A stretch of DNA of 64,000 nt, from positions 1-64,000 of the forward strand of contig DASZZN010000028.1 in the NCBI GenBank assembly GCA_035544955.1, read 5' to 3'. This document shows, one piece after another, positions 9,591 to 55,900 of this stretch. The position numbers and the translations under genes are program-made. The DNA is from Candidatus Dormiibacterota bacterium. GTDB lineage: Bacteria > Chloroflexota > Dormibacteria > CF-121. Position 1 is the stretch's first letter, and every line of letters begins with the position of its first letter. Below the pieces are notes generated by a model that saw nothing but the letters and a program-made list of their open reading frames with translations, made no database searches and had not been told where the DNA came from.

Positions 9591-10084
9591 CCTCGCATGA
9601 AGACCTGCGCCGCCACCCCGGTCACCTGATTCGGCGCGCCCAGCAGGTCCACTACTGGCTCTGGAACGCCGAGGTCTCGCCCGAGGTGACCTCGCCCCAG
9701 TTCGCTGTCCTCTACGCGCTGCGGGCAGAGAAGAACATCGACCAGAAAACGCTGGGCGAACGGGTTTCACTGGACCGCTCGACGACGGCCGAAGTCGTCG
9801 CCCGCCTCAAAGCCCGCGGGATGATCCAGCGCATCCGGGACCCGCGGGACGCACGACGCAACCTGCTTCGATTGACGGCGGCGGGTCAGCGCACCACCGA
9901 GCGCTTGATCCCGAAGGCCGTCCGCATGAACCGGCTGCTGGTCTCGGCGCTGTCCGAGCGCGAGCGCGCGGAGCTGCTGCGGATGCTCAACCTCGTGGTC
10001 GACGCCGACGAGCGCCTCCGCAATGAGCGCTCGCTCCCGCTGAGGGAGGGCCGGAGTGGGGGCGAAATTTCTGAGGCCGGATGA
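9584..10084 (+). CDS. MarR family transcriptional regulator
   Basis: Winged-helix regulator (166 aa), divergent from the liv-pca operon and overlapping pobA by ATGA. The core matches MarR proteins: TSPQFAVLYAL, the recognition helix region LGERVSLDRSTTAEVVARL (about residues 58-76), the wing with RDPRDARRNLLRLT near 85-98, and a long C-terminal dimerisation helix. It probably responds to an aromatic acid or its CoA ester and controls the shared promoter region. The last 17 residues (SLPLREG...) are encoded by a GC-rich palindromic element, so the protein tail and the pobA start are shaped by a repeat insertion. Confidence 0.9.
   Translation: MSTSHEDLRRHPGHLIRRAQQVHYWLWNAEVSPEVTSPQFAVLYALRAEKNIDQKTLGERVSLDRSTTAEVVARLKARGMIQRIRDPRDARRNLLRLTAAGQRTTERLIPKAVRMNRLLVSALSERERAELLRMLNLVVDADERLRNERSLPLREGRSGGEISEAG
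10033..10065 (+). repeat. GC-rich palindromic element, coding copy at the 3' end of marR
   Basis: Degenerate copy of the recurrent element: short arms around GCTGAG followed by GGGAGGGCC and a GTGGGGG tail. It encodes about the last dozen residues of the MarR protein, in frame. Confidence 0.6.
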
Positions 10085-11265
10085 CTCAGGTCGGCATCAT
10101 CGGCGCCGGTCCGGCCGGGCTCATGCTCTCCCATCTCCTGCACCGGCAGGGCATCACCTCCCTTGTGCTCGAGCGGCGCAGCCGCGATTACGTCGAACGC
10201 CGGGTACGGGCGGGTGTCCTCGAACAGGGATCGACCGATCTCCTCGCCTCGACCGGCGTTGGCGGTCGCATGCAACGGGAGGGCCTCGCCCACGATGGCA
10301 TCAAGCTTCGCTTCGCTGGGGAGGAGCACCGCATCGACTTCCGCCGGCTCACCGGTCGGGGCATCACCGTTTACGGCCAGCAGGAAGTGGTCAAGGACCT
10401 GATCCAGCAACGCCTGGCGGACGGTGGCGAGATCTGGTTCGAGACCGAGGCAACCGCCATCGAGGACATCGATGGTGACCATCCGCGCATCGCGTACCGC
10501 CGAAACGGCGAAGAGGCAACCCTCAGCTGCGAGTTCGTGGCGGGCTGCGATGGCTCACACGGCGTCGCACATGACGCTTTCCCTGCCCCGCTTACGGGGG
10601 AGGGTCAGGGTGGGGGCCCCCGCATCTACGAACGCTCCTACCCCTTTGCGTGGCTCGGCATCCTCGCGAAGACACCGCCCGCATCAAATGAGCTCATCTA
10701 CGCCTACCACGAGCGCGGCTTCGCCCTGCACAGCATGCGATCGCCCGAGATCAGTCGCCTCTATCTGCAGGTCGACGCCAACGACACAATGGACGCCTGG
10801 CCGGAAGCGCGAATCTGGGACGAGCTTCGCCTTCGCCTCGCCGAGCCGAAGCTCCAACCCGGCGAGATCATCGAGGATGGCATCACGCCGATGCGCAGCA
10901 TGGTGATGGAGCCGATGCAGTGCGGCCGCCTCTTCCTCGCCGGCGACGCCGCCCACATCGTCCCCGCGACAGGGGCCAAGGGTATGAACCTCGCGCTCGC
11001 CGACGTCAGGGTGCTCGCGGACGCCCTGACCGCGTGGTATCGATCAAAGTCACGCGACCTGCTCGACCACTACTCCGAGCTCTGCCTGCGGCGCGTCTGG
11101 CGCGCGGAGCATTTCTCGGCGTGGATGACGGCGCTGCTCCACCGCGACCCCGCCGGCGATCCCTTCGATCACAAACTGCGACTGTCCTACCTGCGGTACA
11201 TCGTCACGTCTGAGGCGGCGGCGACCACGCTGGCTGAAAACTACGTCGGTTTCGAGGGTGCGTAG
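10081..11265 (+). CDS. pobA: 4-hydroxybenzoate 3-monooxygenase
   Basis: FAD-dependent class A hydroxylase (394 aa) converting 4-hydroxybenzoate plus NAD(P)H and O2 to protocatechuate, which feeds the pca genes. Seen: the N-terminal Rossmann motif GAGPAG (residues 8-13), RVRAGVLEQG (about 41-50), the central DG motif CDGSHG near 157-162, YPFAWLGILA near 184, and the FAD-binding AGDAAHIVPATGAKGMNLALAD block near 288-309. A palindromic element adds about eight residues (PLTGEGQGGGP) just after the DG motif, relative to my memory of the Pseudomonas enzyme. The start overlaps the marR stop, so the two are coupled. Confidence 0.93.
   Translation: MTQVGIIGAGPAGLMLSHLLHRQGITSLVLERRSRDYVERRVRAGVLEQGSTDLLASTGVGGRMQREGLAHDGIKLRFAGEEHRIDFRRLTGRGITVYGQQEVVKDLIQQRLADGGEIWFETEATAIEDIDGDHPRIAYRRNGEEATLSCEFVAGCDGSHGVAHDAFPAPLTGEGQGGGPRIYERSYPFAWLGILAKTPPASNELIYAYHERGFALHSMRSPEISRLYLQVDANDTMDAWPEARIWDELRLRLAEPKLQPGEIIEDGITPMRSMVMEPMQCGRLFLAGDAAHIVPATGAKGMNLALADVRVLADALTAWYRSKSRDLLDHYSELCLRRVWRAEHFSAWMTALLHRDPAGDPFDHKLRLSYLRYIVTSEAAATTLAENYVGFEGA
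10579..10617 (+). repeat. GC-rich palindromic element inserted in frame in pobA
   Basis: CCCTGCCCCG...CGGGGGAGGG hairpin followed by the TCAGGGTGGGGG tail. It is read in frame as APLTGEGQGGGP at residues 168-179 of PobA, between the DG motif and the next conserved strand. Confidence 0.8.
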
Positions 11266-11303
11266 CCAGTGCTACGCTTCAAGCGAAACAAGGAGGAGGC
11301 GCG

Positions 11304-12806
11304 ATGAGCACAGTCGTATCTGATGAGAAGGCGACGGCGAAGACGGCCCCCAAGGAATACAAGCAGTTCATCGGCGGCGAATGGGTTGGAGCGTCGAAGG
11401 GCGCCACTTACCAGGACCGTAATCCGTTCACCGGCGAGCCGATGGCGACCATCCCGGCCTCAACTCGCGAGGATGCCAAGCGCGCGGTGAAGGCGGCGGC
11501 GGACGCGTTTCCTGCCTGGTGGAAGACCCCGCCCGGCGCCAAGCAGCGCCTCTTCCTGAAGGCGGCGGACATCCTCGAGCGGCGTCAGATGGAGGTTGTC
11601 GGCCTGCTCGCCGCCGAGACCGGCTGCACCTTCGGCTTCGGCATGTTCCAGACGATCTTTACGCCCAACCTGCTGCGCCAGGTCGCCGGCCTCGTCTACC
11701 AGCCGATCGGCGAGATCCTCCCGGCCGACTTGCCGGGCGCCTTCTACATGGGGGTGCGCCAGCCCGTCGGCGTCGTCGCCGGCCTCGCGCCCTGGAACGC
11801 GCCGCTGATCCTCTCGCTCCGATCGATCGCGACACCGCTCGCCTTCGGCAACACCGTCGTGCTGAAGCCGTCGGAAGAGTCACCCATCACCGGCGGCATC
11901 CTCTACGCGGAGATCTTCGAGGAGGCCGGCTTCCCACCAGGCGTGGTCAACGTGATCACCCACGCGCCCGGCCAGGCCGAGCCGGTCGTCGACGAGTTCA
12001 TGGAAAACCCGAAGGTTCGCCGCATCAGCTTCACCGGCTCGACGAAAACCGGCCGGATCCTGGCGGAGAAGGCGGCCCGCCAGCTCAAGCGCATGGTCCT
12101 CGAGCTGGGCGGGCAGAACCCGCTGATCGTGCTCGCCGACGCCGATTTGGAGTACGCCGTCAACGCGACGGCCTTCGGCACCTTCCTGCACCAGGGGCAG
12201 ATCTGCATGTCCGCGCGACGGATCATCGTTGAGCGCCCGGTCGCGAAGGAGTTCACCGAGCGGCTGATCGCCAAGACGAAGGGCCTCAAAGTCGGTAGTC
12301 CGACCGAAATGGACACCATCATCGGGCCGCTGATCAACAAGCAAGCGCTGGACAATGTGCGAGCGCGCGTTGACGAGGCGGTCAGCCACGGCGCCAAGGT
12401 CCTGACGGGTGGCAAGGCGCAGGGTGCCTGTTACGAGCCAACGCTGCTCACGGACGTTCCCGCCGATGTCGCGATGAGCCGGGAGGAGACCTTCGGTCCG
12501 GTCGCCACCATCACGATCGTCGAGAATGCCGACGAGGCCGTCCGGGTTGCGAACGAAACATCCTATGGCCTATCCGCCGGAATACTGACGCGCGACGCGG
12601 ATCGCGGGATGGCGCTGGCGGAGCGGATCGAGGCCGGCATCGTCCACATCAACGACCAGCCGGTCAACGACGAACCGCAGGTCCCCTTCGGCGGAGTGAA
12701 GGACAGCGGCTACGGCCGGTTCGGCGGCGGTGAGGCGATGCACGAGTTCACCGAGATGCGCTGGGTGACGGTGCAGGGCCAGGGAGGACGGCCCTTCCCC
12801 TTCTAA
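11304..12806 (+). CDS. Aldehyde dehydrogenase (aromatic-aldehyde type likely)
   Basis: NAD(P)-dependent aldehyde dehydrogenase (500 aa). Catalytic Cys301 lies in GQICMSA and the general base Glu267 in LELGG. The coenzyme loop APWNAP and FTGSTKTGR are also visible. The family is closest in style to vanillin/benzaldehyde dehydrogenases (GQICMSARRIIVE), so it may oxidise an aromatic aldehyde to the acid used by PobA; that is inference from family resemblance and position. An excellent AAGGAGGA ribosome site precedes the ATG. The 38-base gap after pobA suggests co-transcription. Confidence 0.9.
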   Translation: MSTVVSDEKATAKTAPKEYKQFIGGEWVGASKGATYQDRNPFTGEPMATIPASTREDAKRAVKAAADAFPAWWKTPPGAKQRLFLKAADILERRQMEVVGLLAAETGCTFGFGMFQTIFTPNLLRQVAGLVYQPIGEILPADLPGAFYMGVRQPVGVVAGLAPWNAPLILSLRSIATPLAFGNTVVLKPSEESPITGGILYAEIFEEAGFPPGVVNVITHAPGQAEPVVDEFMENPKVRRISFTGSTKTGRILAEKAARQLKRMVLELGGQNPLIVLADADLEYAVNATAFGTFLHQGQICMSARRIIVERPVAKEFTERLIAKTKGLKVGSPTEMDTIIGPLINKQALDNVRARVDEAVSHGAKVLTGGKAQGACYEPTLLTDVPADVAMSREETFGPVATITIVENADEAVRVANETSYGLSAGILTRDADRGMALAERIEAGIVHINDQPVNDEPQVPFGGVKDSGYGRFGGGEAMHEFTEMRWVTVQGQGGRPFPF

Positions 12807-12818
12807 CGACCTGCGCCC

Positions 12819-13070
12819 CTAGTTAGTGCGGGTTCTACTGCCCGCCGCCGCGGCGAGCCTGGGATTGTCGTCCGGACGGGTCAATCCCAGTGTCTGGTGC
12901 AAGCGCGCCATGCGGCTGCTGACCTCGCCCTCGCTGATGCCCAGGTAACTCGCAATGCCCTTGTTGGGTAGGTCGCGCTCAATCAGCCGAAGCAGCTGGA
13001 GCTCGGCGCCCATCAGACGGCTCCGCAGCTCACCGTCTGTGAAGCGATGCACCCAGGCTGACCTTGTCAC
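12819..13070 (-). CDS. Stand-alone LuxR/GerE-type HTH protein
   Basis: Small protein (83 aa) consisting almost only of a GerE-like helix-turn-helix: ELQLLRLIERDLPNKGIASYL then GISEGEVSSRMARLHQTLGL. No receiver or ligand-binding domain is seen. The frame opens with GTG at 13070 and ends 12 bases from the aldehyde dehydrogenase stop, so the genes converge. It could be a small DNA-binding regulator or the C-terminal remnant of a larger response regulator. I see no upstream coding continuation in this frame beyond 13070. Confidence 0.6.
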   Translation of the reverse strand: MTRSAWVHRFTDGELRSRLMGAELQLLRLIERDLPNKGIASYLGISEGEVSSRMARLHQTLGLTRPDDNPRLAAAAGSRTRTN

Positions 13071-13108
13071 TCACCTCAGTCTGTCACACTTCGGCATTCT
13101 TCGTGTGT

Positions 13109-13786: not shown

Positions 13787-13794
13787 GCTGGCAG

Positions 13795-13800
13795 GATAAT
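13795..13800 (+). promoter_or_regulatory. Candidate -10 box for a leaderless transcript
   Basis: GATAAT lies nine bases before the ATG at 13810 in a 23-bp divergent gap. There is no room for a ribosome site, so transcription would begin at or next to the start codon. No convincing -35 box is seen. Confidence 0.35.
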
Positions 13801-13809
13801 CTCACGTCG

Positions 13810-15048: not shown

Positions 15049-15059
15049 AGCTCGACCGC

Positions 15060-17717: not shown

Positions 17718-18581
17718 GTGCCGAAGATGGTCTACATGCGATCCGCAGTGGCGACAAGACGACGATTCCTAGCCGTTGGCGGAGTGGCCCTTGCCGGCGC
17801 GGTGCTCAGCCGTAACGTTGGCGCCGAAATCATCAAGGACGTGAGCGCGGGCTTTGGTGCTGCCGCCCCCACCCTGCCCTCTTCCGGCGGGGGAGGGATA
17901 AATTCCACGGGCGTTACGACCGCCACATCGGCCCCCACAGCGACTCCAACCCCGACGCCGACGCCGACACCGGCACCGACACCGGCGACGGTCACCATTC
18001 CGGTGCCGGTCTTCCAGCAGAGCATGGTGCTCGATTGCGAGACGGCCGCGCTGCAGCAGGGCCTTGCCTATTACGGGATCACCGTCAGCCAGTCCCAGCT
18101 GTTCGCCGGTGAGTTCGCCGACGTCCGGCCACCGGTGATGGGCCCGAACCACACGGTTCTTCGCTGGGGCAATCCTTATACGAACTTCGTCGGCTACGTC
18201 AACGGCAGCGACTGGACGCCCACCGGCTTCGGCGTTTACTGGCCGGTCATCTTGCGGCTCGCCCATACCTACGGCCTACCGAACGCGATTGGCGGCGAGG
18301 GCTTTGCGCCGAGCCGGATTTACAGCGAGCTGGCTGCCGGGCATCCCGTGCAAATCTGGATTCAGACGCGATTCGCCCGCGTCCCGCTTGGCACCTGGAC
18401 CGCCTGGGATGGCACCCAGGTCCGCTATTCGTACGCCGAGCATTCGGTGACCTTGAGCGGGGTTTCCCCCACCCAGGTGCGAGTCAATGATGTCCTCAAC
18501 GCCAGCCAGTACTGGGTCGACAAGGCGCTCTTCGAGGCCAACTTCGCCGACTTCAACAATATGGCCGTGATCTTCCAGTAG
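17718..18581 (+). CDS. Tat-exported C39-like (papain-fold) peptidase domain protein
   Basis: 287-aa protein starting at GTG 17718 with GAAAGG upstream. The N-terminus has a twin-arginine motif (TRRRFLAVGG) and a hydrophobic segment, then a linker containing a palindromic-element insertion and a TPTPTP run. The C-terminal domain begins VPVFQQSMVLDCETAALQQGL. It has Cys107, His242 (YAEHSVTLSG) and Asp258 (VNDVLN), placed as in C39-like peptidases (Peptidase_C39_2). It could cleave peptides outside the cell or be an inactive binding domain. It is divergent from the HtrA-type protease, so two extracytoplasmic proteases sit side by side. Confidence 0.75.
   Translation: MPKMVYMRSAVATRRRFLAVGGVALAGAVLSRNVGAEIIKDVSAGFGAAAPTLPSSGGGGINSTGVTTATSAPTATPTPTPTPTPAPTPATVTIPVPVFQQSMVLDCETAALQQGLAYYGITVSQSQLFAGEFADVRPPVMGPNHTVLRWGNPYTNFVGYVNGSDWTPTGFGVYWPVILRLAHTYGLPNAIGGEGFAPSRIYSELAAGHPVQIWIQTRFARVPLGTWTAWDGTQVRYSYAEHSVTLSGVSPTQVRVNDVLNASQYWVDKALFEANFADFNNMAVIFQ
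17865..17898 (-). repeat. GC-rich palindromic element, reverse copy inside the C39-like gene
   Basis: On the minus strand it reads CCCTCCCCCGCC...GAGGGCAGGGTGGGGG. It is read in frame on the other strand as PTLPSSGGGG at about residues 50-60, in the linker between signal peptide and catalytic domain. Confidence 0.75.
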
Positions 18582-20039: not shown

Positions 20040-21272
20040 CTAGCGGCGCAAGAGCGCATCTCGTAATTTCACCCGGGCGCCGAGTCGGAGCACCGAGTTG
20101 GAGTAGATCCGTGCGGCGATCCAGGTCGCCGCCGCGCTCGTCACCAGCGTCAGCCCAACCGACAGGGCTGCCTGCCACGGCGCAATGTCCCCTGTGGCCA
20201 TCCCGGTTGGGAGGATCACGGGTGCGAAGAAGGGAACGAAACCGAGGGCGACGCCCGTGCTCGACATCGGCGTTCCGTCGAACATCGGGGTCAATACCCC
20301 GATGGCGACAAACCACGAGAGGATCGCAAGCATCGTGATCGGCAGGACAACGCTCTGGACCTCTTCCTGACGGGAAACAAGCGAACCCGCGGCGGCGAAC
20401 AGAATGGCGTAGAGGAAGAAGCCCAGGATGAACCAGAGCAATCCGGCGAGGATGACGCCCGCCCCGGCCGCCGGCGCGGTGAAGACGCCGCCCACGGTGG
20501 CCGCGATGAAGGCAAAGACACCGATCACCGTGAACTGAAACAGCCCCACCAGCCCGATGCCGATTACCTTGCCGATCAGTAAGTGGATGGGCTTCACCGT
20601 CGACAACAAGATCTCGACGATGCGGTTCGCTTTCTCCTCGACGACACCCTGGGCAATGAATGCGCCGTAGGTCAGCATCGCGATATAGAGGAAGAGGGCG
20701 ACAATGAAGCCGGCGGCGACCAGCTCGAGACGTTGCCCGCTCGCGGGTTTGAGCGATTGCACATGGACGGTTGCACTGGCGAGATTGGCCTCGACAGTCG
20801 CCGGATTGAGGCCGGCCGCGGTTAATTGACTCTCGAGTGCTCGCTGCCGAACCAGCGCCTGGAGCAAACTCTGGAGGGTCGTGCTCAACTGGTCAGGGAC
20901 CAGCACCTCCGGGGAGGTTGCAGCGCCGCGCACAAGCGCATCGAGGGTGCCCTTACGGACCTGGCCCTCGGCCTGGGTTTCATCAGTTACCGGAGCTCGC
21001 TCGACTGCGATCCCGAGCGCCTTGGCGGAGGCGGTCAGCGGGTCCGCGAGGCTCTGCGCCTCACCGAAATAGGCGAACTCGTAGGTTTTGCTGGGGCCCT
21101 GCTTGCTCAGGACCAGATTTTGAAAGACGAGATAGCCGACGATCGCGACCAACACGAGGGCGGTCCCGATGATGAAGACGCGGGTTCGCACGCGGGTTAC
21201 GAACTCTCGGCGCGCGATCAAGGCGACGGCCCTGGCCGAGCTGCGCGGATGGCGGTCGAGCGGGTCGTTCAC
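20040..21272 (-). CDS. natB: ABC-2 type permease (NatB-like)
   Basis: 410-aa membrane protein with one N-terminal helix, a large extracytoplasmic domain (about residues 60-190) and five or six clustered C-terminal helices, the NatB/YhaP plan. Motifs include ARREFVTRVRTRVFIIG at the N-terminus and GVVEEKANRIVEILLSTVKP near 230, diagnostic of ABC-2 exporters of the sodium-efflux/NatB group. It is coupled to the ATPase gene by an ATGA overlap. The exported substrate is not known; NatAB of Bacillus extrudes sodium. Confidence 0.83.
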   Translation of the reverse strand: MNDPLDRHPRSSARAVALIARREFVTRVRTRVFIIGTALVLVAIVGYLVFQNLVLSKQGPSKTYEFAYFGEAQSLADPLTASAKALGIAVERAPVTDETQAEGQVRKGTLDALVRGAATSPEVLVPDQLSTTLQSLLQALVRQRALESQLTAAGLNPATVEANLASATVHVQSLKPASGQRLELVAAGFIVALFLYIAMLTYGAFIAQGVVEEKANRIVEILLSTVKPIHLLIGKVIGIGLVGLFQFTVIGVFAFIAATVGGVFTAPAAGAGVILAGLLWFILGFFLYAILFAAAGSLVSRQEEVQSVVLPITMLAILSWFVAIGVLTPMFDGTPMSSTGVALGFVPFFAPVILPTGMATGDIAPWQAALSVGLTLVTSAAATWIAARIYSNSVLRLGARVKLRDALLRR

Positions 21273-22429: not shown

Positions 22430-22807
22430 CTATTTGACCTGGATTATTCCGACGCAGTTCTTGCCCGGGTCGATGAACCAGGCCATCAAGGCAAAGCCGA
22501 CGTCGGCAATGCCGTCGACGGTCTTGAGGCCAGGCGTGTCGTAATCCTCGATCTTCACGCCGCGCCTTCGGAGCTCCGCGACTTCGGCCCGGACATCTTT
22601 CACGCGAAAGCCCGCCTGAGTCTGATCGTCTTTGGTGCCGACGGTGCTCTTGCTAAGAGTCAAGTCACTATCGCCGCCGCATTTGAAGACCACCGCTGCC
22701 GGACTGTCATTGATGATCTTCAAACCAATCTTGTTGGCCCAAAAATCTTTGGAAGCCTCCAGATCTGGCGCCAGCAAAACGACGTTGACCGGATAATCGC
22801 CGAGCAC
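22430..22807 (-). CDS. VOC/glyoxalase-fold protein
   Basis: 125-aa protein with the two beta-alpha-beta-beta-beta modules of the vicinal-oxygen-chelate fold. The N-terminal module reads VNVVLLAPDLEASKDFWANKIGL and the second GFRVKDVRAEVAELRRRGVKI, ending FALMAWFIDPGKNCVGIIQ. A metal-binding Glu near the C-terminus is replaced by Gly (NCVGIIQ), so metal-dependent catalysis is doubtful. It may be a dioxygenase-like or resistance-type binding protein. It lies just downstream of the DUF2157-like gene and may be co-transcribed. Confidence 0.72.
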   Translation of the reverse strand: MLGDYPVNVVLLAPDLEASKDFWANKIGLKIINDSPAAVVFKCGGDSDLTLSKSTVGTKDDQTQAGFRVKDVRAEVAELRRRGVKIEDYDTPGLKTVDGIADVGFALMAWFIDPGKNCVGIIQVK

Positions 22808-22816
22808 GATTCGATA

Positions 22817-23816
22817 CTAGCGCCTCAGGCGCGGAAGCAGCCTCGCTAGGAGCAGCGCGATGCCAAGCAGCACCAGCCCCGAGATCACGAGACTCACGGC
22901 GAAATTGAGGCTGCTCTGGAAATAGCGGAACTCGATGTCGAGCACGAACGCGAACAAGCCGACGCCACCAGCGAACGCGTAGCCGGCACTGCCCCGGATG
23001 ACAGACGCAGCAAAGGCGGCCCCGGCGAGCAGGGCGCCGAAGATCTCGAGCGGAAGGTTGCCGTCCTGGGCCGTGATGAAGGCGGTGACAATCGCCATCG
23101 AAGGCCCGGCGAACGCCAGCACCTCCCGTCGCCCATATCACTTTTTCCTGCCGGCCGTATTCTGCGGTCGCCACCAGGATGGCGGCGGTCGCGAGGAAGA
23201 CCAACTCGACCGCCCATCCATGCTCGAGCTGCAGCCACGCGATGGATGCAATGGTGGCGATGAGTAGGGACAGACTGAGCGCCGCGGCCAGCAGCCCTGA
23301 GCGCAGGCGTACCAGGGAGACCGCGGCGAGAACCGCCGCCACCGATGCCGAAACCAGGAGGATGCGATATCCGGTGTGCGGAGGGATCGAGCCATTAGGA
23401 CCGCCGAGAAGCTCGGCCTGGAGCTGCCCGGTGAACAGGCCGATGGCCGCGACCGCGAGTGTCACAAGACTGGTTTGCGCCCGACGGGCACGCGCCCGCT
23501 CGCCCGGAAGCGCGCGTGCCACCAGGAGAGCAGCGATCGCAACCAGACCCGGGATAGCCAACCGGCCGACGACGCCCAGTGACCGGTATTGCGTGCCGAG
23601 AAGGGTGCCCAGGCCGGCAAGCGTCACCAGCGCGCCGGCGTACGTGATGACCTCCGTAGCGGTGATCGAGCCATCCGCACCCTTCCCTCCCCCAGGTGGT
23701 GAGGGGACATCTCGGCCCGCTGTTGCTTCGAACTTGGCGATCGCCTCTGCTTGGCGGGCGTCGATCAGACCGGCGGATTGCCAGCGCGCGAGTTGACCTT
23801 TGAGGTCTTGACTCAG
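22817..23816 (-). pseudogene. DUF2157-like multi-pass membrane protein with a single-base frameshift
   Basis: The N-terminal part (QLARWQSAGLIDARQAEAIAKFE) is the cytoplasmic DUF2157 helical domain. It is followed by about seven membrane helices in one frame to about 23125, then continues in another frame as VLAFAGPSMAIVTAFITAQDG and further helices to 22817. Removing one G from the GGGAGG run near 23122-23127 restores one continuous membrane protein. This is either an assembly error or a decayed gene. The start may be the CTG at 23816, which overlaps the DUF6457 stop; no better start codon is seen. A palindromic element encodes PSPPGGGKGADG in the linker. Confidence 0.65.
23676..23709 (-). 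repeat. GC-rich palindromic element inside the DUF2157-like gene
   Basis: Read on the minus strand: CCCCTCACCACCTGGGGGAGGG followed by AAGGGTGCGG in two parts. It encodes VPSPPGGGKGA in frame between the soluble domain and the first membrane helix. Confidence 0.65.
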
Positions 23817-24091
23817 GGCTCGGCCTCGACCGCCTCGCGGATGCCGCGCAGATACGCCGCCTCGTCCGCCGCGGAAAGTGCGCCTGCTTGCCGAAGGCGC
23901 TCGACAGCGATCCCGGCCATGAAGCAGGCCAGCGGGGCGAAGCGACGCTCCTTGGTATGCGCCGCGACGCGCGCCAGCTCGAGGACTTCGTCGGCTACCT
24001 GTGGATCCAGCTCCGGTGGGGCAACCGCGGTCCCGCGATCCCGAGCGGACTGCGCGAACTGACGGCCGAGCGCCTCGAACCAGGCGTTCAT
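23813..24091 (-). CDS. DUF6457 protein, probably linked to molybdenum cofactor maturation
   Basis: 92-aa helical protein beginning MNAWFEALGRQFAQ and containing LDPQVADEVLELARVAAHTKER and FAPLACFMAGIAVERL. This pattern matches DUF6457, a domain that in actinobacteria and relatives is found beside or fused to MobA-like proteins. Here it is divergent from a molybdenum/tungsten formate dehydrogenase gene, 105 bp away, which supports a role in cofactor supply. The exact function is unknown. It overlaps the DUF2157-like gene by a few bases. Confidence 0.65.
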   Translation of the reverse strand: MNAWFEALGRQFAQSARDRGTAVAPPELDPQVADEVLELARVAAHTKERRFAPLACFMAGIAVERLRQAGALSAADEAAYLRGIREAVEAEP

Positions 24092-24108
24092 CTCGTCGCA
24101 ACGGTATC

Positions 24109-24154
24109 ACCAACTACAATATTGGTTGACACCACCCGGGCCGGTGAGTACGCT
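24109..24154 (+). promoter_or_regulatory. Promoter of the formate dehydrogenase operon with a possible operator
   Basis: TTGACA (24126-24131), a 17-base spacer and TACGCT (24149-24154) form a recognisable sigma70-type promoter. It would place the transcript start about 36 bases before the GTG of fdhG, which has GGAGGAAT as ribosome site. An inverted repeat ACCAA-8-TTGGT (24109-24126) touches the -35 box and could be a regulator site. Reading is by eye. Confidence 0.5.
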
Positions 24155-28125: not shown

Positions 28126-28899
28126 ATGGCACAACCGGTCGGATTCTTCACGGACACAACGCTCTGCATCGGATGCAAGGCCTGCGAGGTGGCGTGCAAG
28201 GAATGGAATGGCCTGCCCGACAACCCGCTCGAGTTTCGCGGCAGCTACGACAACACCGGCCAGCTCGACCACGCCAACTGGCGCCACGTTCGCTTCGTCG
28301 AACAAACGACCAAGAGTCCCGATAAGCCGATCGCCTGGTCGATGATGTCGGACGTTTGCAAGCACTGCGCCAACGCCAGCTGCCTGGAAGTCTGTCCGAC
28401 CAATGCCATCGTCCGAACCGAGTTCGACACGGTCTTCATCCAGCAGGACGTCTGTAATGGGTGCCGCGACTGCATCTCGGCCTGCCCCTACGGCGTCATC
28501 GGTTTCAACAGCAACACCGGGACGGCGCAAAAGTGCACGTTCTGCTATGACCGCCTGCAAAACAACCTCAAGCCGGCCTGCGCGACCGCATGCCCGACGC
28601 AGTCGATCAAATTCGGCCCGCTCGATGAGATGCGCCAGACTGCGGCGACACGGCTCGCCACTCTGCATGCGCAGGGCATGAGCGAGGCTCGCATCTACGG
28701 CGACAAGGAGTACGGTGGCTTGCACGCCTTCTTCCTGCTGACAGACAAACCGGAGACATATAGCCTGCCCAGTACCGAAAGCGCGGTATTGCCCAGCCGC
28801 AACAACATTCCCGGCTACCTGGGCGCCGTGGTCACCGCCGTCGTAGCGGCCGTGGCGGGTCTGATCGCCTTCCGCCGCCGCGGGGAGGCAAAGCCCTGA
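28126..28899 (+). CDS. fdhB: Formate dehydrogenase iron-sulfur subunit (FdnH-like)
   Basis: 257-aa electron-transfer subunit with four [4Fe-4S] motifs: CIGCKACEVACKEW, CKHCANASCLEVCP, CNGCRDCISACPYG and CTFCYDRLQNNLKPACATACP. The C-terminus has one transmembrane helix (AVVTAVVAAVAGLIAF) as in FdnH/FdoH, which anchors the dimer on the outer face. Electrons pass from FdhG to the NrfD-type protein. It starts three bases after fdhE and its stop overlaps the next start. Confidence 0.92.
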   Translation: MAQPVGFFTDTTLCIGCKACEVACKEWNGLPDNPLEFRGSYDNTGQLDHANWRHVRFVEQTTKSPDKPIAWSMMSDVCKHCANASCLEVCPTNAIVRTEFDTVFIQQDVCNGCRDCISACPYGVIGFNSNTGTAQKCTFCYDRLQNNLKPACATACPTQSIKFGPLDEMRQTAATRLATLHAQGMSEARIYGDKEYGGLHAFFLLTDKPETYSLPSTESAVLPSRNNIPGYLGAVVTAVVAAVAGLIAFRRRGEAKP

Positions 28900-29792
28900 T
28901 GCCCGGCGAGCATTTCGTCGTGGCGCCGGGCTGGGCCTGGTACATCCTTCTGTACTTCTTCTTCGCCGGGATCTCCGGCGGTGCCTTTGTCATCGGCACC
29001 ATGCTGCGGCTCTGGGGCAGTGCGGCAGACGCCGCGGCCTCGCGACTCGCCTTCATCATCAGCTTCCCGCTGCTGCTGCTCTGCCCCATCCTCCTCACCC
29101 TTGACCTGGGCCAGCCGTTCCGCTTCTGGCACATGCTGGTCGATGTCGGGACAGGCGTACCGGCGTTCAAGGCGTACTCGCCGATCTCGGTGGGGTCGTG
29201 GGGGCTCCTGATCTTCGGGCTCTTCTCGTTCGTGATGTTCCTGGCCGCCGTCGGTGAGGGCGGGTACCTGCGCTGGCGCGTGCTCGCGGGCGCTGGCCGC
29301 GTCATGGGCAGCGCTTTGGGGAAGGCGTTTATGGTGATCGGCGCGATCGTCGGCTTCTTCATCGCGTCGTACACGGGTGTGCTTCTCGCCGTGAGCAATC
29401 AGCCGGTGTGGAGCGATACGTGGACGCTCGGCGCCCTATTTCTCGCGTCGGGGCTGAGCGGCGCCGCCGCTACCATCTTGCTGCTGAGCCACGGCCGGCG
29501 CGACGCCGCGGTCACGGACGGCAAGTTGATGCTGGCGGACCGGTACTTCATCATCCTCGAGTTGGTCTTGATCGCCCTGTTCTTGATCACGCTGGGCGGC
29601 GTTGTGTCGAAGGTGCTGGGCGGTGGCTGGATCCTCCTCTGGTTGGTGGTCCTGATCGGCACCCTGGTGCCGCTTGTCGCCGAGTGGCGTCCGGCGCTGC
29701 TGCGCCAGCTTCCACCCGTGGTGGTGCCGGTGCTGGTGCTGGTCGGCGTGCTTGCCCTGCGCGCCGTCATCATTTTCAGCGCCCAGGCCTAG
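28899..29792 (+). CDS. nrfD: NrfD/PsrC-type membrane quinone-linked subunit
   Basis: 297-aa protein with eight or nine transmembrane segments and the NrfD beginning WAWYILLYFFFAGISGGAF, then PLLLLCPILLTLDLGQPFRFWHM and SPISVGSWGLLIFGLFSF. It replaces the cytochrome b (FdnI) of E. coli FDH-N and would hand electrons to the quinone pool without haem. It shares a TGATG junction with the Fe-S subunit gene. Membrane anchor of the FdhGB dimer by context. Confidence 0.88.
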   Translation: MPGEHFVVAPGWAWYILLYFFFAGISGGAFVIGTMLRLWGSAADAAASRLAFIISFPLLLLCPILLTLDLGQPFRFWHMLVDVGTGVPAFKAYSPISVGSWGLLIFGLFSFVMFLAAVGEGGYLRWRVLAGAGRVMGSALGKAFMVIGAIVGFFIASYTGVLLAVSNQPVWSDTWTLGALFLASGLSGAAATILLLSHGRRDAAVTDGKLMLADRYFIILELVLIALFLITLGGVVSKVLGGGWILLWLVVLIGTLVPLVAEWRPALLRQLPPVVVPVLVLVGVLALRAVIIFSAQA

Positions 29793-30293
29793 ATGAAGGT
29801 TGGGGTCCTCCTGCCCTCCCGGTTCGAGGACCCGGGCGAGTTCCTCGCCGACGCGCGCGCGATGGAGGCGGCCGGCGCGGACAGCATCTGGCTGGAGGAA
29901 GGCGATGGCTACGATCCGATGCTGGCGCTGGCGGCGATCGCCGCGGTAACTGGCCGGCTGCGCCTTGGGCTGATCACGCTCAATACTCCCTCCCCCGCGG
30001 GGGGAGGGTCGGCGAGGGGGTTTGAGACCCTCCAGCACCTTTCCCGCCAGCGCGTCATCACTCTTATCCCCTCCCCCGCACGCGGGGGAGGGCAGGGTGG
30101 GGGTCTTTCAGGATCAGAGCGCTGGCGGCGGGTCGGGGTTCCCGCCGATCGAGAGGCGTGGGCGCGAACCCTCGAGGAGGCCCGGCCCGACTTCGACGGT
30201 GTGCTGGTCCCGCTCGACCCGAGACTGCTCGACATCTTGAGGCATCCCGAAGACGCGATCGACCGTTCCGACCTGATGCTGGCGCAAGGCTAA
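29793..30293 (+). CDS. Short luciferase-like (LLM) flavin/F420 protein with two repeat insertions
   Basis: 166-aa protein. The N-terminus MKVGVLLPSRFEDPGEFLADARAMEAAGADSIWLEEGDG (given in 20-residue limit as MKVGVLLPSRF and AGADSIWLEEG) matches luciferase-like monooxygenases of the F420 type, but the usual barrel of about 300 aa is missing after the first four strands. Two palindromic elements in frame encode TPSPAGGGSARG (about 65-76) and IPSPARGGGQGGGL (about 91-104). Without them only about 140 residues remain. It directly abuts the nrfD stop, so it is in the fdh operon. It may be a degraded LLM protein or a small binding protein. Confidence 0.6.
   Translation: MKVGVLLPSRFEDPGEFLADARAMEAAGADSIWLEEGDGYDPMLALAAIAAVTGRLRLGLITLNTPSPAGGGSARGFETLQHLSRQRVITLIPSPARGGGQGGGLSGSERWRRVGVPADREAWARTLEEARPDFDGVLVPLDPRLLDILRHPEDAIDRSDLMLAQG
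29986..30023 (+). repeat. GC-rich palindromic element, first copy in the LLM-like gene
   Basis: CTCCCTCCCCC-GC-GGGGGGAGGG core with the tail GTCGGCGAGGGGG. It is read as TPSPAGGGSARG in frame. Confidence 0.8.
30067..30103 (+). repeat. GC-rich palindromic element, second copy in the LLM-like gene
   Basis: Best-preserved copy: arms CCCTCCCCCGC and GCGGGGGAGGG around CAC, with tail CAGGGTGGGGG. It is read as PSPARGGGQGGG in frame. It starts 43 bases after the end of the preceding copy. Confidence 0.85.
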
Positions 30294-31039: not shown

Positions 31040-32596
31040 ATGGCTATGCGCGTGAAGCCGGCCTGGGCGGTTCACCTGCAGCCCGGTAGCGAGATCCCGC
31101 TCGAGGACGAGGCCGCCCGTCGCTACCTTCGTCGCGGCAACCTGCCTGAGGCATTGCTGCGAGGGGGCGCACATCCAGCACTCGTCGCCGGCGAGATCGC
31201 CCTCTCCCACGACGAACTCCGGGCGGCTACTGGCCGCGCCGCGAGTCGCCTCCAGAAGGCGGGCGTCACTCAGGGAACCCACGCGGCCATGTTTGCCGAG
31301 AATTCGGGCGCCTGGATTATTTCCTACCTCGGGCTGCAGGTGCTGGGCGCGACCGTCGTTGGCATGAATCCGGCCTTTAAGGCCGCCGAGGCCGAGCAGA
31401 TCTTGGGCGATAGCCAAGCCGCCGTAGCGGTGGTCGATGCCGGACGGCAAGCCCTGGTCGAGGCGCTCCGCCCGCGACTGGCTGCCCTTCGAGCGACCGT
31501 CCGCGTTGAAGAAATCGGCTCCTCGGACCCAGGGACAATTCCCTCCCCCCTCGCAGGCACAGCTACTCCCTCCCCGGCTCGCGGGGGAGGGGAGGGTGGG
31601 GGCCTCAACGCCGATAGTCCCGCGCTCCTCCTCTACACCTCTGGCACGACGGGCCGGCCTAAGGGCGCGTTGCTCGATCACGGGAACCTCCTCGCGCAAG
31701 GGCGCGGCGTGGTCGAGGCGTGGCGATGGACGAAGACGGACCGGCTCGTGCTGGCGCTGCCGCTGTTCCATGTTCATGGGCTTGCGATCGCGCTCAACGG
31801 CTCTTTGATCGCCGGCGGCTGTGCCGTCCTTGTGCCGTTCACCCCGGAGAACGTCATTCGCGAGCTCCAGGCCGGCGGCACCATGTTCTTCGGCGTACCC
31901 GCGATGTACCAGCGCCTCTGCGATTACCTCGAGAAAAACCCGGCTGATCTGCGTCACATTCGGCTCTTCGTCGCTGGCTCCGCTCCCCTACCCACGACCC
32001 TGTTTGCGCGCTGCGAGCGAATCCTCGGACAACCGGTTCTGGAGCGTTATGGCATCACCGAAGGCGGGATCGTCGTCTCCAACCCGTACGATGGGCCGCG
32101 CCAGCCGGGCCGCGTGGGTTTCCCCTTGCCAGGCGTTGAGGTGCGGCTCGGTGACCAGGACGAAGTCCAGTTGAAGGGCGGCCAGGTCTTCAAGGGCTAT
32201 TGGCGGAATACCGCGGCCTCGGCCGACGCCTTCACCGATGGCTGGTTTCGCACTGGCGACGTCGGCGAGATCGGCGAGGACGGAACGCTCGCGATTCGCG
32301 GGCGTATCAAGGAACTCATTATCTCCGGCGGCTACAACGTCTACCCACGCGAGGTCGAAATGGTCCTCGAGCAGCATCCGGCAGTGGCGGAGGTGGCGGT
32401 GGCCGGGCTGCCGTCTGAACGCTGGGGCGAAGAGGTCACCGCGTTCGTGGTCGTGCGCTCTCCGGTGGATGCGCAGGAGCTGATCGCCTACGCGCGCGAG
32501 CGGCTATCGACCTACAAGTGCCCGCGCGCGGTGCGCTTCATCGACGCTCTCCCGCGCAACGCGATGGGAAAGGTCGCCCGCTCACAGCTCAGGTAG
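31040..32596 (+). CDS. AMP-forming CoA ligase, MatB-like (malonyl-CoA synthetase group)
   Basis: 518-aa ANL ligase. P-loop LLYTSGTTGRPKGALLDH near residue 195, the FHVHGLAIAL block near 237 that is common in malonyl-CoA synthetases, ERYGITEGGIV near 335, GWFRTGDVGEI near 395 and the catalytic C-terminal Lys region NAMGKVARSQL. A double palindromic insertion (about residues 167-189) sits in the loop just before the P-loop. MatB activity is a guess from these blocks; other dicarboxylate or fatty-acyl specificities are possible. It starts at ATG 31040, 22 bases after the HAD gene. Confidence 0.8.
   Translation: MAMRVKPAWAVHLQPGSEIPLEDEAARRYLRRGNLPEALLRGGAHPALVAGEIALSHDELRAATGRAASRLQKAGVTQGTHAAMFAENSGAWIISYLGLQVLGATVVGMNPAFKAAEAEQILGDSQAAVAVVDAGRQALVEALRPRLAALRATVRVEEIGSSDPGTIPSPLAGTATPSPARGGGEGGGLNADSPALLLYTSGTTGRPKGALLDHGNLLAQGRGVVEAWRWTKTDRLVLALPLFHVHGLAIALNGSLIAGGCAVLVPFTPENVIRELQAGGTMFFGVPAMYQRLCDYLEKNPADLRHIRLFVAGSAPLPTTLFARCERILGQPVLERYGITEGGIVVSNPYDGPRQPGRVGFPLPGVEVRLGDQDEVQLKGGQVFKGYWRNTAASADAFTDGWFRTGDVGEIGEDGTLAIRGRIKELIISGGYNVYPREVEMVLEQHPAVAEVAVAGLPSERWGEEVTAFVVVRSPVDAQELIAYARERLSTYKCPRAVRFIDALPRNAMGKVARSQLR
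31540..31606 (+). repeat. Tandem GC-rich palindromic elements in the CoA-ligase gene
   Basis: A partial copy (CCCTCCCCCCTCGC at 31541 onwards) precedes a full copy (31566-31602: CCCTCCCCGGCTCGCGGGGG with the GGGTGGGGG tail). Together they encode PSPLAGTATPSPARGGG and GEGGG in frame. Confidence 0.75.
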
Positions 32597-32640
32597 CCCC
32601 CACCCCGCCCTCCCCCGCGAGCGGGGGAGGAAAAGGTGTG
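32597..32640 (-). repeat. Intergenic GC-rich palindromic element between convergent genes
   Basis: Perfect arms CCCTCCCCCGC / GCGGGGGAGG with the tail on the plus-strand 5' side (CCCCCACCCC), so the element points left. It lies directly after the ligase stop and before the convergent MHS-transporter stop. It could stop transcription from both sides, but no T-run follows. Confidence 0.75.
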
Positions 32641-32656
32641 GAAGGCTCAGAGTGCG

Positions 32657-36805: not shown

Positions 36806-36848
36806 CGCCTAGGTAGGGATCTCTGCTTGTTGGGGAAAGCAGGGACTC

Positions 36849-36883
36849 AATCCCTCCCCATCTGGGGGAGGGCAGGGTCGGGG
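36849..36883 (+). repeat. GC-rich palindromic element in a 5' leader
   Basis: CCCTCCCCATCTGGGGGAGGG core and the CAGGGTCGGGG tail, between a TTGACA promoter and an AAGGAGG ribosome site. The hairpin ends about a dozen bases before the Shine-Dalgarno, so it would be part of the mRNA leader. Confidence 0.75.
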
Positions 36884-48787: not shown

Positions 48788-48815
48788 CGGCGCTTCCTTC
48801 CCATAATGACTTCAA

Positions 48816-49784: not shown

Positions 49785-49824
49785 GACTGATAACGTCGAG
49801 CTGCGTGCGGTCGGGAAAGCAGCA

Positions 49825-50931: not shown

Positions 50932-50938
50932 AGGGAAA

Positions 50939-50995: not shown

Positions 50996-51090
50996 GCTTG
51001 TTGATCCACCAATTCTCAAACAGCTTGCATGGGCCGCCGCGCGACGCAGGTCTAGGCCATGGGTGGTCGGCTTATCGGAAGCCGCCGCCG

Positions 51091-51531: not shown

Positions 51532-51547
51532 CCTGGTCCGGACGCTG

Positions 51548-52108: not shown

Positions 52109-52124
52109 CAGGTAATCTGTTGCG

Positions 52125-52766
52125 TTACCCGAGACTCCGTAGAGCGGTACGAAGCTGCTCACCGAACGCCTTGGCATTGGCATTGAGTGCGCTTTCCAGG
52201 GTCAGGAGCTTGGCTGCGTCGGCCCTGTCGGCTAGCGCATTGTTCCAGTCCCAAAAACTGTCGCGGAGAGTACGCCAGACCTTGAATGTCGTCCCCTCGG
52301 GTCCCTCGTCCAGGATGAGGTCGCGCTCACCCTCGCGATAGAGGCGACGCCACTCTTGCTCGAGCTCGTAGGCCCTGTCGAAGTTGCCTAGCTTGACCGG
52401 TCCCTGTTCTGGAATCGGCAGTTGGGGCCGTCCCTTTGGGAAGTGCTTCAACTCTCGCTGCAGCTCGAGCAGCGTCTGTACCGCAGCCATGAGCAATCCG
52501 GATGCGTTCCGGCGGAGGTCATAGCGTCGCTCGAGCCGACCTCGGGTTGTCTGGAGGGTGAAAACGAACAGGCCGAAGAAGCCAGATCCAAACAGAGGTA
52601 GAGCGGCCTCGCGAAGCTTGCCTGTTGTCTGGCTGGCGTTGCTCGGCACCGGCAGGAAGACATCGGCGATGACCGCCGCAAGCAGCACGACGTTGAGAAC
52701 CCAGAGGACGAGCAGCAGCCAGGATCCCAGGAGCCATCTGAGAGAGACCTCCGCCTTTTGCTTCAT
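52125..52766 (-). CDS. Two-helix membrane protein with cytoplasmic domain, cassette gene
   Basis: 213-aa protein with two N-terminal hydrophobic helices (LGSWLLLVLWVLNVVLLAAV and LPLFGSGFFGLFVFTLQT) and a cytoplasmic helical part rich in Arg/Glu (YELEQEWRRLYREGERDL). It is the first gene of a tight three-gene set, with 16-base gaps to the next membrane protein and then to the PIN protein. It lies 70 bp left of the tRNA-Cys fragment. No family recognised. Confidence 0.6.
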   Translation of the reverse strand: MKQKAEVSLRWLLGSWLLLVLWVLNVVLLAAVIADVFLPVPSNASQTTGKLREAALPLFGSGFFGLFVFTLQTTRGRLERRYDLRRNASGLLMAAVQTLLELQRELKHFPKGRPQLPIPEQGPVKLGNFDRAYELEQEWRRLYREGERDLILDEGPEGTTFKVWRTLRDSFWDWNNALADRADAAKLLTLESALNANAKAFGEQLRTALRSLG

Positions 52767-52836
52767 GAATTGTGGTCAAATTTCGCCGCCGTCGGCCAAT
52801 ACCGCTTGTCGCCGCCTAACTTCGTCTTGAAAAAAC

Positions 52837-52885
52837 TGGAGGCGAGTGCGGGATTCGAACCCGTGGTGGAGGTTTTGCAGACCTC
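52837..52885 (-). other. 3' half of tRNA-Cys(GCA), probable integration (att) scar
   Basis: On the minus strand the sequence has an intact anticodon arm (GAGGT-CTGCAAA-ACCTC, anticodon GCA), variable bases, the T-arm with TTCGAAT loop, the 3' acceptor strand ACTCGCC, and TCCA at the end (52837-52840). The 5' half (GGCGAGT, D-arm) is absent to the right. This is exactly the segment that tRNA-targeting integrases duplicate. It cannot be a working tRNA. By the orientation, an element would extend to the right of this point, with the complete tRNA-Cys at its far end outside the window. Confidence 0.75.
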
Positions 52886-52965
52886 TTCATTATTTTGGGT
52901 TCCAACCGATCTGGGCAGGGCATCTCCACACGCTCGGTCTTGCCAGATCGGCCTTAGGCACGGCT

Positions 52966-55900
52966 TCATCCGGGTGTTGCAAACTCAACCAGCCTGCAGA
53001 GGGCACCCGCGAGTCGCATCTGGTCGGGCGTGCGGCAACGGGCCTTGAGCAACTCGGGGCTGCACATCAAGATCACCAATCCTTGAGCCCTAGAAGCCGC
53101 CACGTTTAGGCGGTTTAGGCTGAACAGGAAATCCATGCCGCGAGGGGCGTCGTCGACCGTCGAGGTTGCCATCGAGTAGATGAGGACGGGCGCTTCCTGG
53201 CCCTGGAACTTGTCGACGGTGCCGACCCGCGCTCCGCCCGGAAGTGTCTCGATAAGCCGGCGGACCTGGGCGTTGTACGGCGCGACGACCAACACATCAT
53301 CAACAGCGAGCGGGCGTGTGGCCCCTTCGCGATCGGTCCACGGTAGGCCAAGAAGTGATCGGAAGGTTTGGTTAACTCGGTCGGCCTCTTCCGGCGACAG
53401 CGTCCGATTGCCGCTGTGGTCAACGGATAGATACCGCAACCCAAGCCCGCCAGTGCCGTTGCTTACCGCGAGGTTCTGGCGTTTAGTCGATTCGTCCGGC
53501 TCGAGCTTGCGGTCGTAGAAGGCCTCGGATACGAAAGCGCAGACCGTGGGGTGTAAACGGTAGGTTGTCTCAAGGAAGAGCCCGTAGGCGGTCGGCATCG
53601 TCGGCTGGTCCTGGATGACGTGATCGAGTACGGATCGGTCGACGCCTTCCGGATGGATCCCGTGGGAAGGCTGCCTTAGCTGGTTCGGATCGCCCAACAA
53701 TATAAGGTTGTGTGCTGCGCCAGCGATTGCAAGAACGTTCGCCAACGCCATCTGCCCAGCCTCGTCGACGACCAGGTAATCCAGCTTCGCGGGAAAGCTG
53801 GCGCGGGCGAAGAGCCAGGGCGTTCCGGCGACGACCTCAACCTCATCCGCGGCTAACGCAGCTTCGACGGTCGATGAGCTGTTGGTGCATTGAACATCTT
53901 GTGAAGCGCATCGATCGCGCTCGTCGGCCTTCTGCATGGCGCGGACTACCTTTCCTCTGCGCCTCGCCTCCCCCATCGTTTTGTCGAGCAGGTTGCCAAT
54001 GACCTTGTGACTATTCGCCGTTATCCCAACGCGCTTGCCGCGTCTGACCAGGTCGACGATCAACTCGGCGCCGATCGTTGTCTTCCCGGAGCCCGGCGGC
54101 CCCTGAATCGCCAGGCAGGTGTTGTCGAGCCGAGGCGCTAACAGCAACGCCACGTCCTTTGCTCGTTCGCCCGCCTGCACCAGCGGCGCCCCTTCGATGA
54201 CACCCTCGATCCTCGGCGGCTCGAGGCAGAGCAGATCGCGGGCCGCCTGGTAGGGGCCCGTCCCAGCAAAGCCGAGGTCGGCGACGCGTTGGCCCAGTCG
54301 CATCAGAGCATCGCGTTGCTCCTTAGTCGGGATCGGACTGGCTGGGATGAGCGACGTCGGATACGGTGACTCCGACTTCACGCCGCGACTCAGCTCGATC
54401 CACCCCGCGATCGGATCCATTGCCACCACTTCGCCGGCGCCTGATTCTGTCCGTGGGTCGTGCGGTTGGTCGCCAACCCCGATCTTGTACTCCTGGTTCG
54501 GATCGAACCAATAGCGAAAGACGTTCGAACGGTGCTCCGGCCGCACCTCGCCGCGAAACTCGATCGCGCCAATCGCTTCCCGATCCTCCACCAACTGCTC
54601 GTCGGTCAAGGAACACTTGCGGTAGTACTCCCACCACTCGGATTTTCCCTCGCGGCGGTGCCAGTTGAGGCTGTGAGCCATCAGGTAGCGCGCCTGCTGC
54701 GCGGTCGACCGATCGTCCTCGTTTTCGGGGACGCCCTCGAGCAGTCGATCGACGAGCACAGCTGTCCGCTCATCGATGTCGCGTAGGGTTTCGCTCGGTT
54801 CGACTTCCTCGGGCCCGGGCCGTGGAATCTCGCCGTATAGAGCAATCGCCTCAAGGCGCCGCGCCTCCAGCCACTGGCGCAGTTGCGCCGTCGAGAGGCA
54901 GTCGTCCTCGTTGTACCGGGCGATCTCGTCGAGCAGCCGCTGGTCGTGCGACTCGAGCCAGTCCTCGTAAGCAACGATGCTGCCCGCGGCGTCGACGATC
55001 TCGGTCGACCTCTTGCCTCGATAGAGCGACTCGAGTTCCTTCAACGAATACGACTCGGTCCCGATCCGAACGGACTGCCGGACTATCCGATACAGGTCGA
55101 CGAGCACCCGGCCGCGCAGGAGCTGGTCGACCTCAGCTTCCCGGGTCGCATAGGTACTCGCCAGATACTTGAGCGCGTTCGGCTCGTAAGGCGCGTAGTG
55201 ATAGACGTGCAGATCGGGATTGCGGTTGAGTCGCTCGACAAGGAAGTCGACGACCTGCTCGAAGGCACGCTTCTCTTCATCGGGATCGTGGCCCCAGAAC
55301 GCATGGTGCATCATCACCCCCCTCCCCGACCCTCCCCCTTGAGGGGGGAGGGAAGTGGCGGAGTTGAGTTCGAGGATGCCGAAGAGGTACTCGAGGCCGT
55401 TGTCGCCGACGAAGGGATCGCCCTCCATGTCGAAGAAGAGGTCGTCCAGGGTTGGCGCGGGGAGCGACTGGAAGCCCAGCTGCTCGCCGAGCGGCGGTAG
55501 GACCTCGAACGGCAGCGTGTCTCTATGCCGCTGCTCCACCTGGAGCCGAGCCTGCTGTCGGAGCCGAGTGAGCGCCATTTCGTTAATTCCCTGGATGGAC
55601 TGATCGACGGGGCTCGCGCCGAGCTCGGTGACGGTCTTGATGCCTGCGAGGTTCAGGCGGCGGGTTTGGTCGCGACGCATGCCCGCAACGAGGCAGAGGT
55701 GGTCGTCCTGGCGACGGCGGACCTCGCAGACATCGATCCAACGGCAGATGCGGCAGTGGTCAACCGGATCTGGATAGGTCGCTATCGCCGGCGCAAACAC
55801 CGTTTCCTCGAACTGCCGCTTGACGCTCCGGTAGTAGGCCCCATAGTCCTTCAGGCGCAGCAACTCCTCACTGCCATCGCCGAGGATTAGCCGAATCCGC

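Follow-up and report, generated by a model that had tools for sequence, protein, structure and literature searches.

A dispersed population of triplex-type motifs, partly read in frame within genes, in a Chloroflexota family

Does a G/C-rich hairpin that recurs within and between unrelated genes of a Candidatus Dormiibacterota bacterium (Chloroflexota; Dormibacteria; CF-121) represent a true repeat family, and if so, of which kind is it and how did it come to lie in coding sequences? This question is raised by a stretch of 64,000 nt (positions 1 to 64,000 of contig DASZZN010000028.1, assembly GCA_035544955.1), hereafter the window, in which an initial annotation had described at least 11 copies of a hairpin followed by a G-rich tail. 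In this 64-kb window (63% G+C), the C-rich arm of the hairpin, CCCTCCCCC, occurs 13 times for 1.05 expected, i.e. a ~12-fold excess that was reached in 0 of 100 shuffles. The host is probably a soil bacterium, since a contig of a soil Chloroflexi MAG (CF_63) matches the window at 83% over 1561 nt. The whole genome (3.67 Mb, 52 contigs) contains 51 perfect hairpins of the form CCCTCCCCC-N2-8-GGGGGAGGG, while the reversed-pattern control gave 0. A covariance model (R1), built from a 7-sequence alignment with a single loop class that replaced an earlier alignment with misplaced loops, gave 146 matches in the genome, corresponding to at least 115 non-overlapping places (a lower bound, 150 of 1586 candidates being scored). 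In the window, its 19 matches fall at 10 element places and on one 12-nt fragment at 20736 (E 1.1). Eight of these places are clear (E ≤0.00043) and two are weak; with one partial copy, the total is 11 (8 clear, 3 weak or partial; Table 1), as the initial annotation had counted. A dispersed repeat family in this genome is thus confirmed. Chance G/C-rich sequence, which the G+C content of the window would favour and which had been named in advance as what would refute the family, was rejected on the reversed control, the excess over shuffles and the presence or absence of the element at fixed sites described below; its probability is negligible.

The repeated unit measures ~38-40 nt and reads [A]TTT-CCCTCCCCC-N3-6-GGGGGAGGG-N2-3-GGGTGGGGG-C. 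Its borders were profiled on the 102 copies of at least 28 bits, which also served for the location counts (13 of the 115 places fall below that line and were left out). They are sharp: positions -3 to -1 are T-rich (mostly TTT or TCT), position +1 is mostly C, and background composition is reached by about -7 and +4. The usual tail, GGGTGGGGG, mirrors the purine arm GGGGGAGGG, T standing opposite A and G opposite G. Because each G meets a G and each T an A in mirror order, the sequence supports a reading of the tail as the predicted third strand of an antiparallel purine-motif intrastrand triplex. Among the 101 copies that could be parsed, out of 102 and with the best-fitting loop lengths chosen, the stem is complete (9/9, G-T counted as a pair) in 63, at least 8 of 9 third-strand triads are present in 87, and both are perfect in 40. 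Mean stem scores are 8.52 for copies internal to coding sequences and 8.51 for intergenic ones, mean third-strand scores are 8.33 and 8.32, and no clear difference in loop lengths was found between coding and intergenic copies.

This three-block architecture (C arm, purine arm, mirror-symmetric G block) is that of the TM_ECO/PIT motif, CCCTCNCCC-N3-6-GGGNGAGGG-N3-GGGNGAGGG (Holder et al. 2015, PMC4666352), with which the element shares a 9-nt C arm, a loop of 3-6 nt, a 9-nt G arm, a short second loop and a 9-nt second G block. According to that paper, TM_ECO occurs 3610 times in 262 proteobacterial genomes, in numbers that differ between relatives and with no linked mobility genes reported, and it is always intergenic in E. 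coli MG1655. However, the exact TM_ECO consensus is not found here. Since the third block is usually GGGTGGGGG and not GGGNGAGGG, with G where TM_ECO has A, and since the second loop is often 2 nt, the element is a variant and not TM_ECO itself; in addition, it has C:G at the free stem position, and its host belongs to Chloroflexota. The motif class has already been published for Proteobacteria (PMC4666352), and what is new is an amplified, partly protein-coding population of such motifs in a Chloroflexota family. A literature search with capped listings and few subscription journals brought up no account of such motifs within reading frames or from this lineage.

We then looked at where the copies lie. 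Among the 102 copies, 52 are within called genes, 38 are intergenic and 12 run across gene ends. Unlike the always intergenic E. coli motif, 27 copies are deep inside genes (90 nt or more from either end), 24 of them with both 150-nt flanks coding in one open frame. The 27 internal copies use all six frames (8, 8, 7, 2, 1 and 1). The element is stop-poor and open in most frames, the variant with a TA second loop giving TAG in one of them, and a coding copy adds about 5-21 Gly/Pro-rich residues. By comparison, when 3000 points were drawn at random from these loci, 67.5% fell in one open frame, against 25/102 copies; the element thus avoids genes without being shut out of them. The initial annotation had called for such a count of coding copies and frames and for a comparison with relatives, and these bear it out, some congeners lacking the element. 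Its list of seven unrelated genes with in-frame copies holds in part: the p-hydroxybenzoate hydroxylase (PHBH), C39 peptidase, luciferase-like (two copies), AMP ligase and RNase H/AAA genes are solid, whereas the MarR and DUF2157-like genes are weak matches. Where it had three intergenic or leader copies, we count two clear non-coding ones (32596 and 36842).

At five coding sites compared across congeners, all 33 measured sequences (own genome included) keep their length modulo 3. Taking the number of distinct lengths at each site less one, this holds through at least 20 length changes. The PHBH gene, identified by Pfam FAD_binding_3 and by solved PHBH chains, carries the element in our genome, G001, G003 and G013 and lacks it in G002, G004 and G014; the filled sites measure 64, 61, 58 and 55 nt and the empty ones 31, 31 and 31 nt (7/7 congruent modulo 3). 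In three printed alignments to solved PHBH chains, the element adds 8 residues at one place. The PHBH of G014 (L296, contig C180), which has no internal element, ends in an element-encoded tail, FPSPARGGGRGGGVGE. A DPP-IV-like S9 peptidase gene (contig C44, identified by Pfam) carries two separate elements, at C44:58848 and C44:59420. The first site measures 137, 104, 146, 131, 164, 101, 101 and 101 nt in eight species, with a doubled element in G013 and a short remnant in G012; the second measures 161 and 164 nt in two species and 146 nt in four others (the contigs of G002 and G004 end before it). All lengths are congruent modulo 3 at both sites. At three sites, the empty allele has one exact length (31, 101 and 146 nt, in 3, 3 and 4 species), and the net gain over it ranges from 3 nt (the apparent remnant of G012) to 63 nt. 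As the gain of 15-18 nt at the second DPP-IV site is smaller than the ~36-nt core, target bases seem to have been replaced there, or trimmed later.

At the AMP ligase site, the element is found in all five readable species (own included), with lengths of 109, 103, 94, 73 and 70 nt, all congruent modulo 3, and no empty allele was readable; rows were dropped for L173 (N run at the site) and L174 (starting after it). Because one species carries the element in the opposite orientation, these sequences suggest a single tolerant loop that may have been struck repeatedly. The luciferase-like site gives lengths from 113 to 185 nt in seven species, all congruent modulo 3, after L176 (anchors misplaced) and L174 (not found) were dropped. 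In L178 (G007:C17), a 36-nt unit containing an element arm is repeated three times in tandem, in frame, at this site.

In-frame palindromic insertions in unrelated genes are a property of the Rickettsia RPEs, and the initial annotation had called the family RPE-like, with a reference to REPs. The in-frame part of that likeness stands (24/27 internal copies; 33/33 sequences at five sites), but membership in either class does not. PMC3733652 distinguishes REPs tagged with GTAG from those tagged with CGTC and identifies RPE-4 and RPE-6 as members of the latter class. In the flank profile of the 102 copies, neither GTAG nor CGTC is found at the element ends, and G stands at -1 in 0% of copies (0% at +1 too, by construction, the tail having been extended over the G run); we therefore rejected GTAG/CGTC REP membership. 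From RPE-4 and RPE-6 the element differs, besides the missing CGTC end, by the third-strand block that follows its hairpin. GTAG REPs also are palindromes of 20-40 nt near gene 3' ends, some of them intragenic (PMC3733652), but those with a RAYT have a GTAG end and a Y1 transposase. The initial annotation had suggested looking for a RAYT-like transposase. We found no Y1/RAYT domain (Pfam PF01797) in our genome (0/1) or in the family carrier genomes (0/18), by a search that is blind to other transposase families and to genes missing from these 75-95% complete assemblies and that was positive in 5/14 known genomes used as controls. The RAYT link is thus not supported. A miniature transposon of the REP/RPE kind, moved in trans by a RAYT or by another HUH/DDE transposase with the G tail as its recognition end, would nevertheless account for the discrete borders, the dispersal, the filled and empty sites, the copies near gene 3' ends and the in-frame copies. 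Given that neither Y1 matches nor end tags were found, and that the net insert at one site falls short of the element's length, we hold this explanation to be unlikely, although a transposase of another family is possible.

Outside genes, the copies are not placed evenly. Among the gene 3' ends adjoining non-internal copies, 61/80 are within 20 nt (median 9), versus 23/66 of the 5' ends (median 52); distances are negative wherever a called gene extends over a copy. Moreover, divergent gaps hold 8/73 copies, yet 4211/15098 of the background intergenic bases. Such a distribution would be expected if the element acted at gene 3' ends, as a terminator or mRNA stabiliser, and the coding copies were by-products. 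In the same direction, three congeners (G004, G005 and G006; L171, L176 and L177) lack the copy that follows the ligase stop codon and have there a different hairpin, of the GGGAGCCC...GGGCTCCC type, and a terminator role has been proposed for the related Enterobacter sp. 638 repeats, CCCTCTCCC-XX(X)-GGGAGAGGG, often found at gene 3' ends (PMC2869309). However, both orientations are used, 27/102 copies are inside genes, and purifying selection against promoter damage would yield much the same pattern; earlier work quoted in PMC4666352 detected neither promoter nor terminator activity of the motif in E. coli. A 3'-end role for the element is possible, but as an explanation of the whole family it is improbable.

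We also investigated how far the element extends across lineages. Perfect hairpins are present in all 18 family genomes searched (8-120 each) and absent from 17 of 23 other genomes of the class. The hairpin with its tail is matched in 31/301 genomes across the phylum, with lineage-specific first loops among the matches listed. Other Chloroflexota families have their own amplified versions (G235, G299 (f15), G277, G319 (f75)), mostly with AGC or 8-nt loops. The exact 35-nt form was also found in records of alpha- and gammaproteobacteria, Troglogloeales and Omnitrophota (at least 120 stretches), with lineage-specific loops and flanks, and the 13 such genomes searched, picked as carriers, all contain 8-155 hairpins. 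One core with local loops and flanks in several phyla could reflect convergence on a stable structure and not descent: repeated local template-switch correction of G/C-rich quasi-palindromes would perfect precisely a hairpin with mirror symmetry. Against this, copies within the genome share their flanks (TTT and C) and a few loop types (GCTTGC, GCTCGC and TCT), which indicates the copying of masters; 17/23 class relatives have no hairpin at all; and the T:A version of the same hairpin class, CCCTCTCCC-GGGAGAGGG, that of the Enterobacter repeat, reaches 0-1 copies per genome in 11 family genomes (G000 and 10 relatives). We consider convergence quite unlikely.

The share of copies with an open frame through both flanks was compared between lineages on 109 of 120 loci (11 of mixed taxonomy were left out, and 9 copies near locus ends dropped). 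It is 6/33 in the CF_ metagenome-assembled genomes, 7/19 in the Rhizobium sp. Q54 records, 4/16 in Xanthobacteraceae and other Hyphomicrobiales, 4/14 in other Alphaproteobacteria, 2/13 in Acetobacteraceae and 0/39 in Luteimonas and relatives. Judged by these fractions, coding copies seem to characterise certain lineages only. In the Luteimonas/Lysobacteraceae copies, none of the 39 being in frame in a gene, the second loop is mostly TT, and a 3' extension near CGAACCGTC is shared.

The explanation that we regard as probable is that of an amplified, dispersed intrastrand-triplex motif, copied without a Y1/RAYT transposase, whose survivors are found in tolerant loops or behind stop codons. It starts from the family, borders, frame retention, filled and empty sites and absence of Y1 matches described above, and adds a copying route that we infer. 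When the G-rich strand becomes single-stranded in replication, repair or transcription, the C arm and the first G arm would form a hairpin, onto whose purine arm the second G block would fold back antiparallel (G over G:C, T or A over A:T), giving a triplex that would thus form in the cell. At this structure the whole unit would be duplicated, most likely in the course of replication or repair, by template switching or strand capture, with target bases sometimes replaced. Transposase-free copying of this kind is favoured because PF01797 was not found in any of the 18 carriers and the ends have neither GTAG nor CGTC. Copies in promoters, or out of frame in genes, would be lost. Those that survive would lie immediately after stop codons or in protein loops that tolerate the Gly/Pro-rich residues added by the stop-poor sequence. 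A bolder version would make the non-B DNA structure itself the replicator: the triplex motif would provoke its own copying at stalled forks or breaks, without any transposase, and would routinely write in-frame protein loops in Chloroflexota and several Alphaproteobacteria. We regard this as rather unlikely; if true, it would be a transposase-free source of protein insertions common to several phyla.

Several points weigh against the favoured explanation, in addition to the blind spots of the Y1 search. On the genomic side, gene calls come from a home-made codon-usage caller trained on the window, and 3/27 internal copies fail the two-flank frame test, including those at 29978 and 31558, for which orthologues support the frame instead. 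In the PHBH gene tree, 3/4 inner forks are unsupported, so that gains and losses are not polarised, and the apparent replacement of target bases could be later trimming. On the structural side, DNA hairpin energies of eight window copies beat those of composition-matched shuffles by a modest margin (z from -0.2 to -3.6), so folding energy alone is weak evidence. TM_ECO folds as a triplex that is stable in vitro, but its in vivo footprint was negative (Holder et al., PMC4666352). The arms hardly vary in our own lineage, and covariation has to be drawn from other organisms; in the loci collected before viral contigs were scanned, 201/239 elements have one form, with which most loci had been selected, leaving too little variation for third-strand covariation. 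Viral contigs were scanned with a pattern that fixed neither one of the stem pairs nor two of the tail positions, and 143 distinct elements came from at least 120 stretches (L305-L424). The free stem base and the tail base that mirrors it are A-A in 102, G-G in 32 and other in 9 (0.63 bits, reached in 0/5000 shuffles). However, a control pair, at 0.13 bits, also exceeds all shuffles, which ignore relatedness, and the free stem pair is Watson-Crick in only 120/143 elements. As relatedness is uncorrected, this covariation supports the triplex geometry without proving it. The triplex motifs of these stretches are of putative phage origin, and the T:A hairpin CCCTCTCCC-GGGAGAGGG is their commonest form (88/143).

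Beyond its origin, the element joins two literatures, that of in-frame palindromic insertions (Rickettsia) and that of triplex repeats (intergenic in E. coli). The filled and empty alleles in known enzymes (PHBH, DPP-IV-like peptidase) form a natural series in which one can test what an inserted loop costs a protein and how a triplex motif spreads. The family is also a warning for annotation, as Gly/Pro-rich loops like PSPxxGGGQGGG in such genomes can be repeat-derived.

Table 1. Copies of the element in the window, with covariance-model scores and gene context.
Feature	Position	Strand	Context and remarks
Degenerate copy	10022..10062	+	C-terminus of MarR-family gene 9584-10084 (MarR by Pfam); 17.7 bits, E 0.039; weak
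In-frame copy	10571..10616	+	PHBH gene 10081-11265; 55.7 bits; clear
Parts of the PHBH copy	hairpin 10581-10604, third strand 10608-10616	+	
Copy with damaged hairpin	17865..17907	-	C39-peptidase-like gene 17718-18581 (Pfam C39_2); 26.3 bits, E 0.00043; clear
Weak decayed candidate	23674..23715	-	ORF 22707-24113 (DUF2157-like); 10.3 bits, E 1.9, not significant alone
First luciferase-like copy	29978..30020	+	gene 29793-30293; 37.1 bits; hairpin 29988-30008; clear
Second luciferase-like copy	30059..30103	+	gene 29793-30293; 58.5 bits; hairpin 30069-30092, third strand 30095-30103; clear
Partial copy (C arm and remnant)	31541..31566	+	directly 5' of copy 31558; exact CCCTCCCCC at 31541
In-frame copy	31558..31603	+	AMP-ligase gene 31040-32596, just before the YTSGTTG motif; 57.4 bits; hairpin 31568-31591; clear
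Intergenic copy	32596..32641	-	from the ligase stop codon; 58.7 bits; clear
Intergenic or leader copy	36842..36883	+	between genes ending 36741 and starting 36905; called intergenic; 28.4 bits, E 0.00014; clear
In-frame copy	55318..55362	-	RNase H_2/AAA gene 52966-56403 (Pfam); both flanks in one open frame; 42.4 bits; clear

The individual copies of the window differ in their state and in their counterparts among congeners. At the MarR site, better copies stand at the same place in G001, G014 and G002, and G004 has none. The C-terminus lengths (68, 80, 19, 79 and 79) are not all equal modulo 3; this span crosses the stop codon into the start of the next gene and was excluded from the frame tests, and L298 (not found) and L299 (mis-anchored) were dropped. 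The copy at 17865 is below the 28-bit line for location counts and its DNA folds no better than shuffles (z -0.19); orthologues align poorly there, so that frame conservation is not measurable. The ORF around 23674 matches DUF2157 below its cut-off, and its part 23123-23812 was left uncalled by the gene caller. Elements corresponding to 29978 are also found in G002, G004, G007 and G014, with none clear in G001, G003 and G005; one 150-nt flank of this copy was not scored as coding, the second copy being near. That second copy, at 30059, has both flanks in one open frame and no counterpart in seven aligning congeners. The two 150-nt flanks of 31558 score best on opposite strands, and a paired partial copy like that of 31541 stands at the same place in G014. 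Copies are present at the 32596 site in G002, G003, G008 and G014. For 55318, a DNA search of the genus found no orthologue, with element matches only. Finally, the gene ending at 28899 (window 28880-28900) has no element, while its orthologues in three congeners (L171, L175 and L178) carry C-terminal elements and partial elements.

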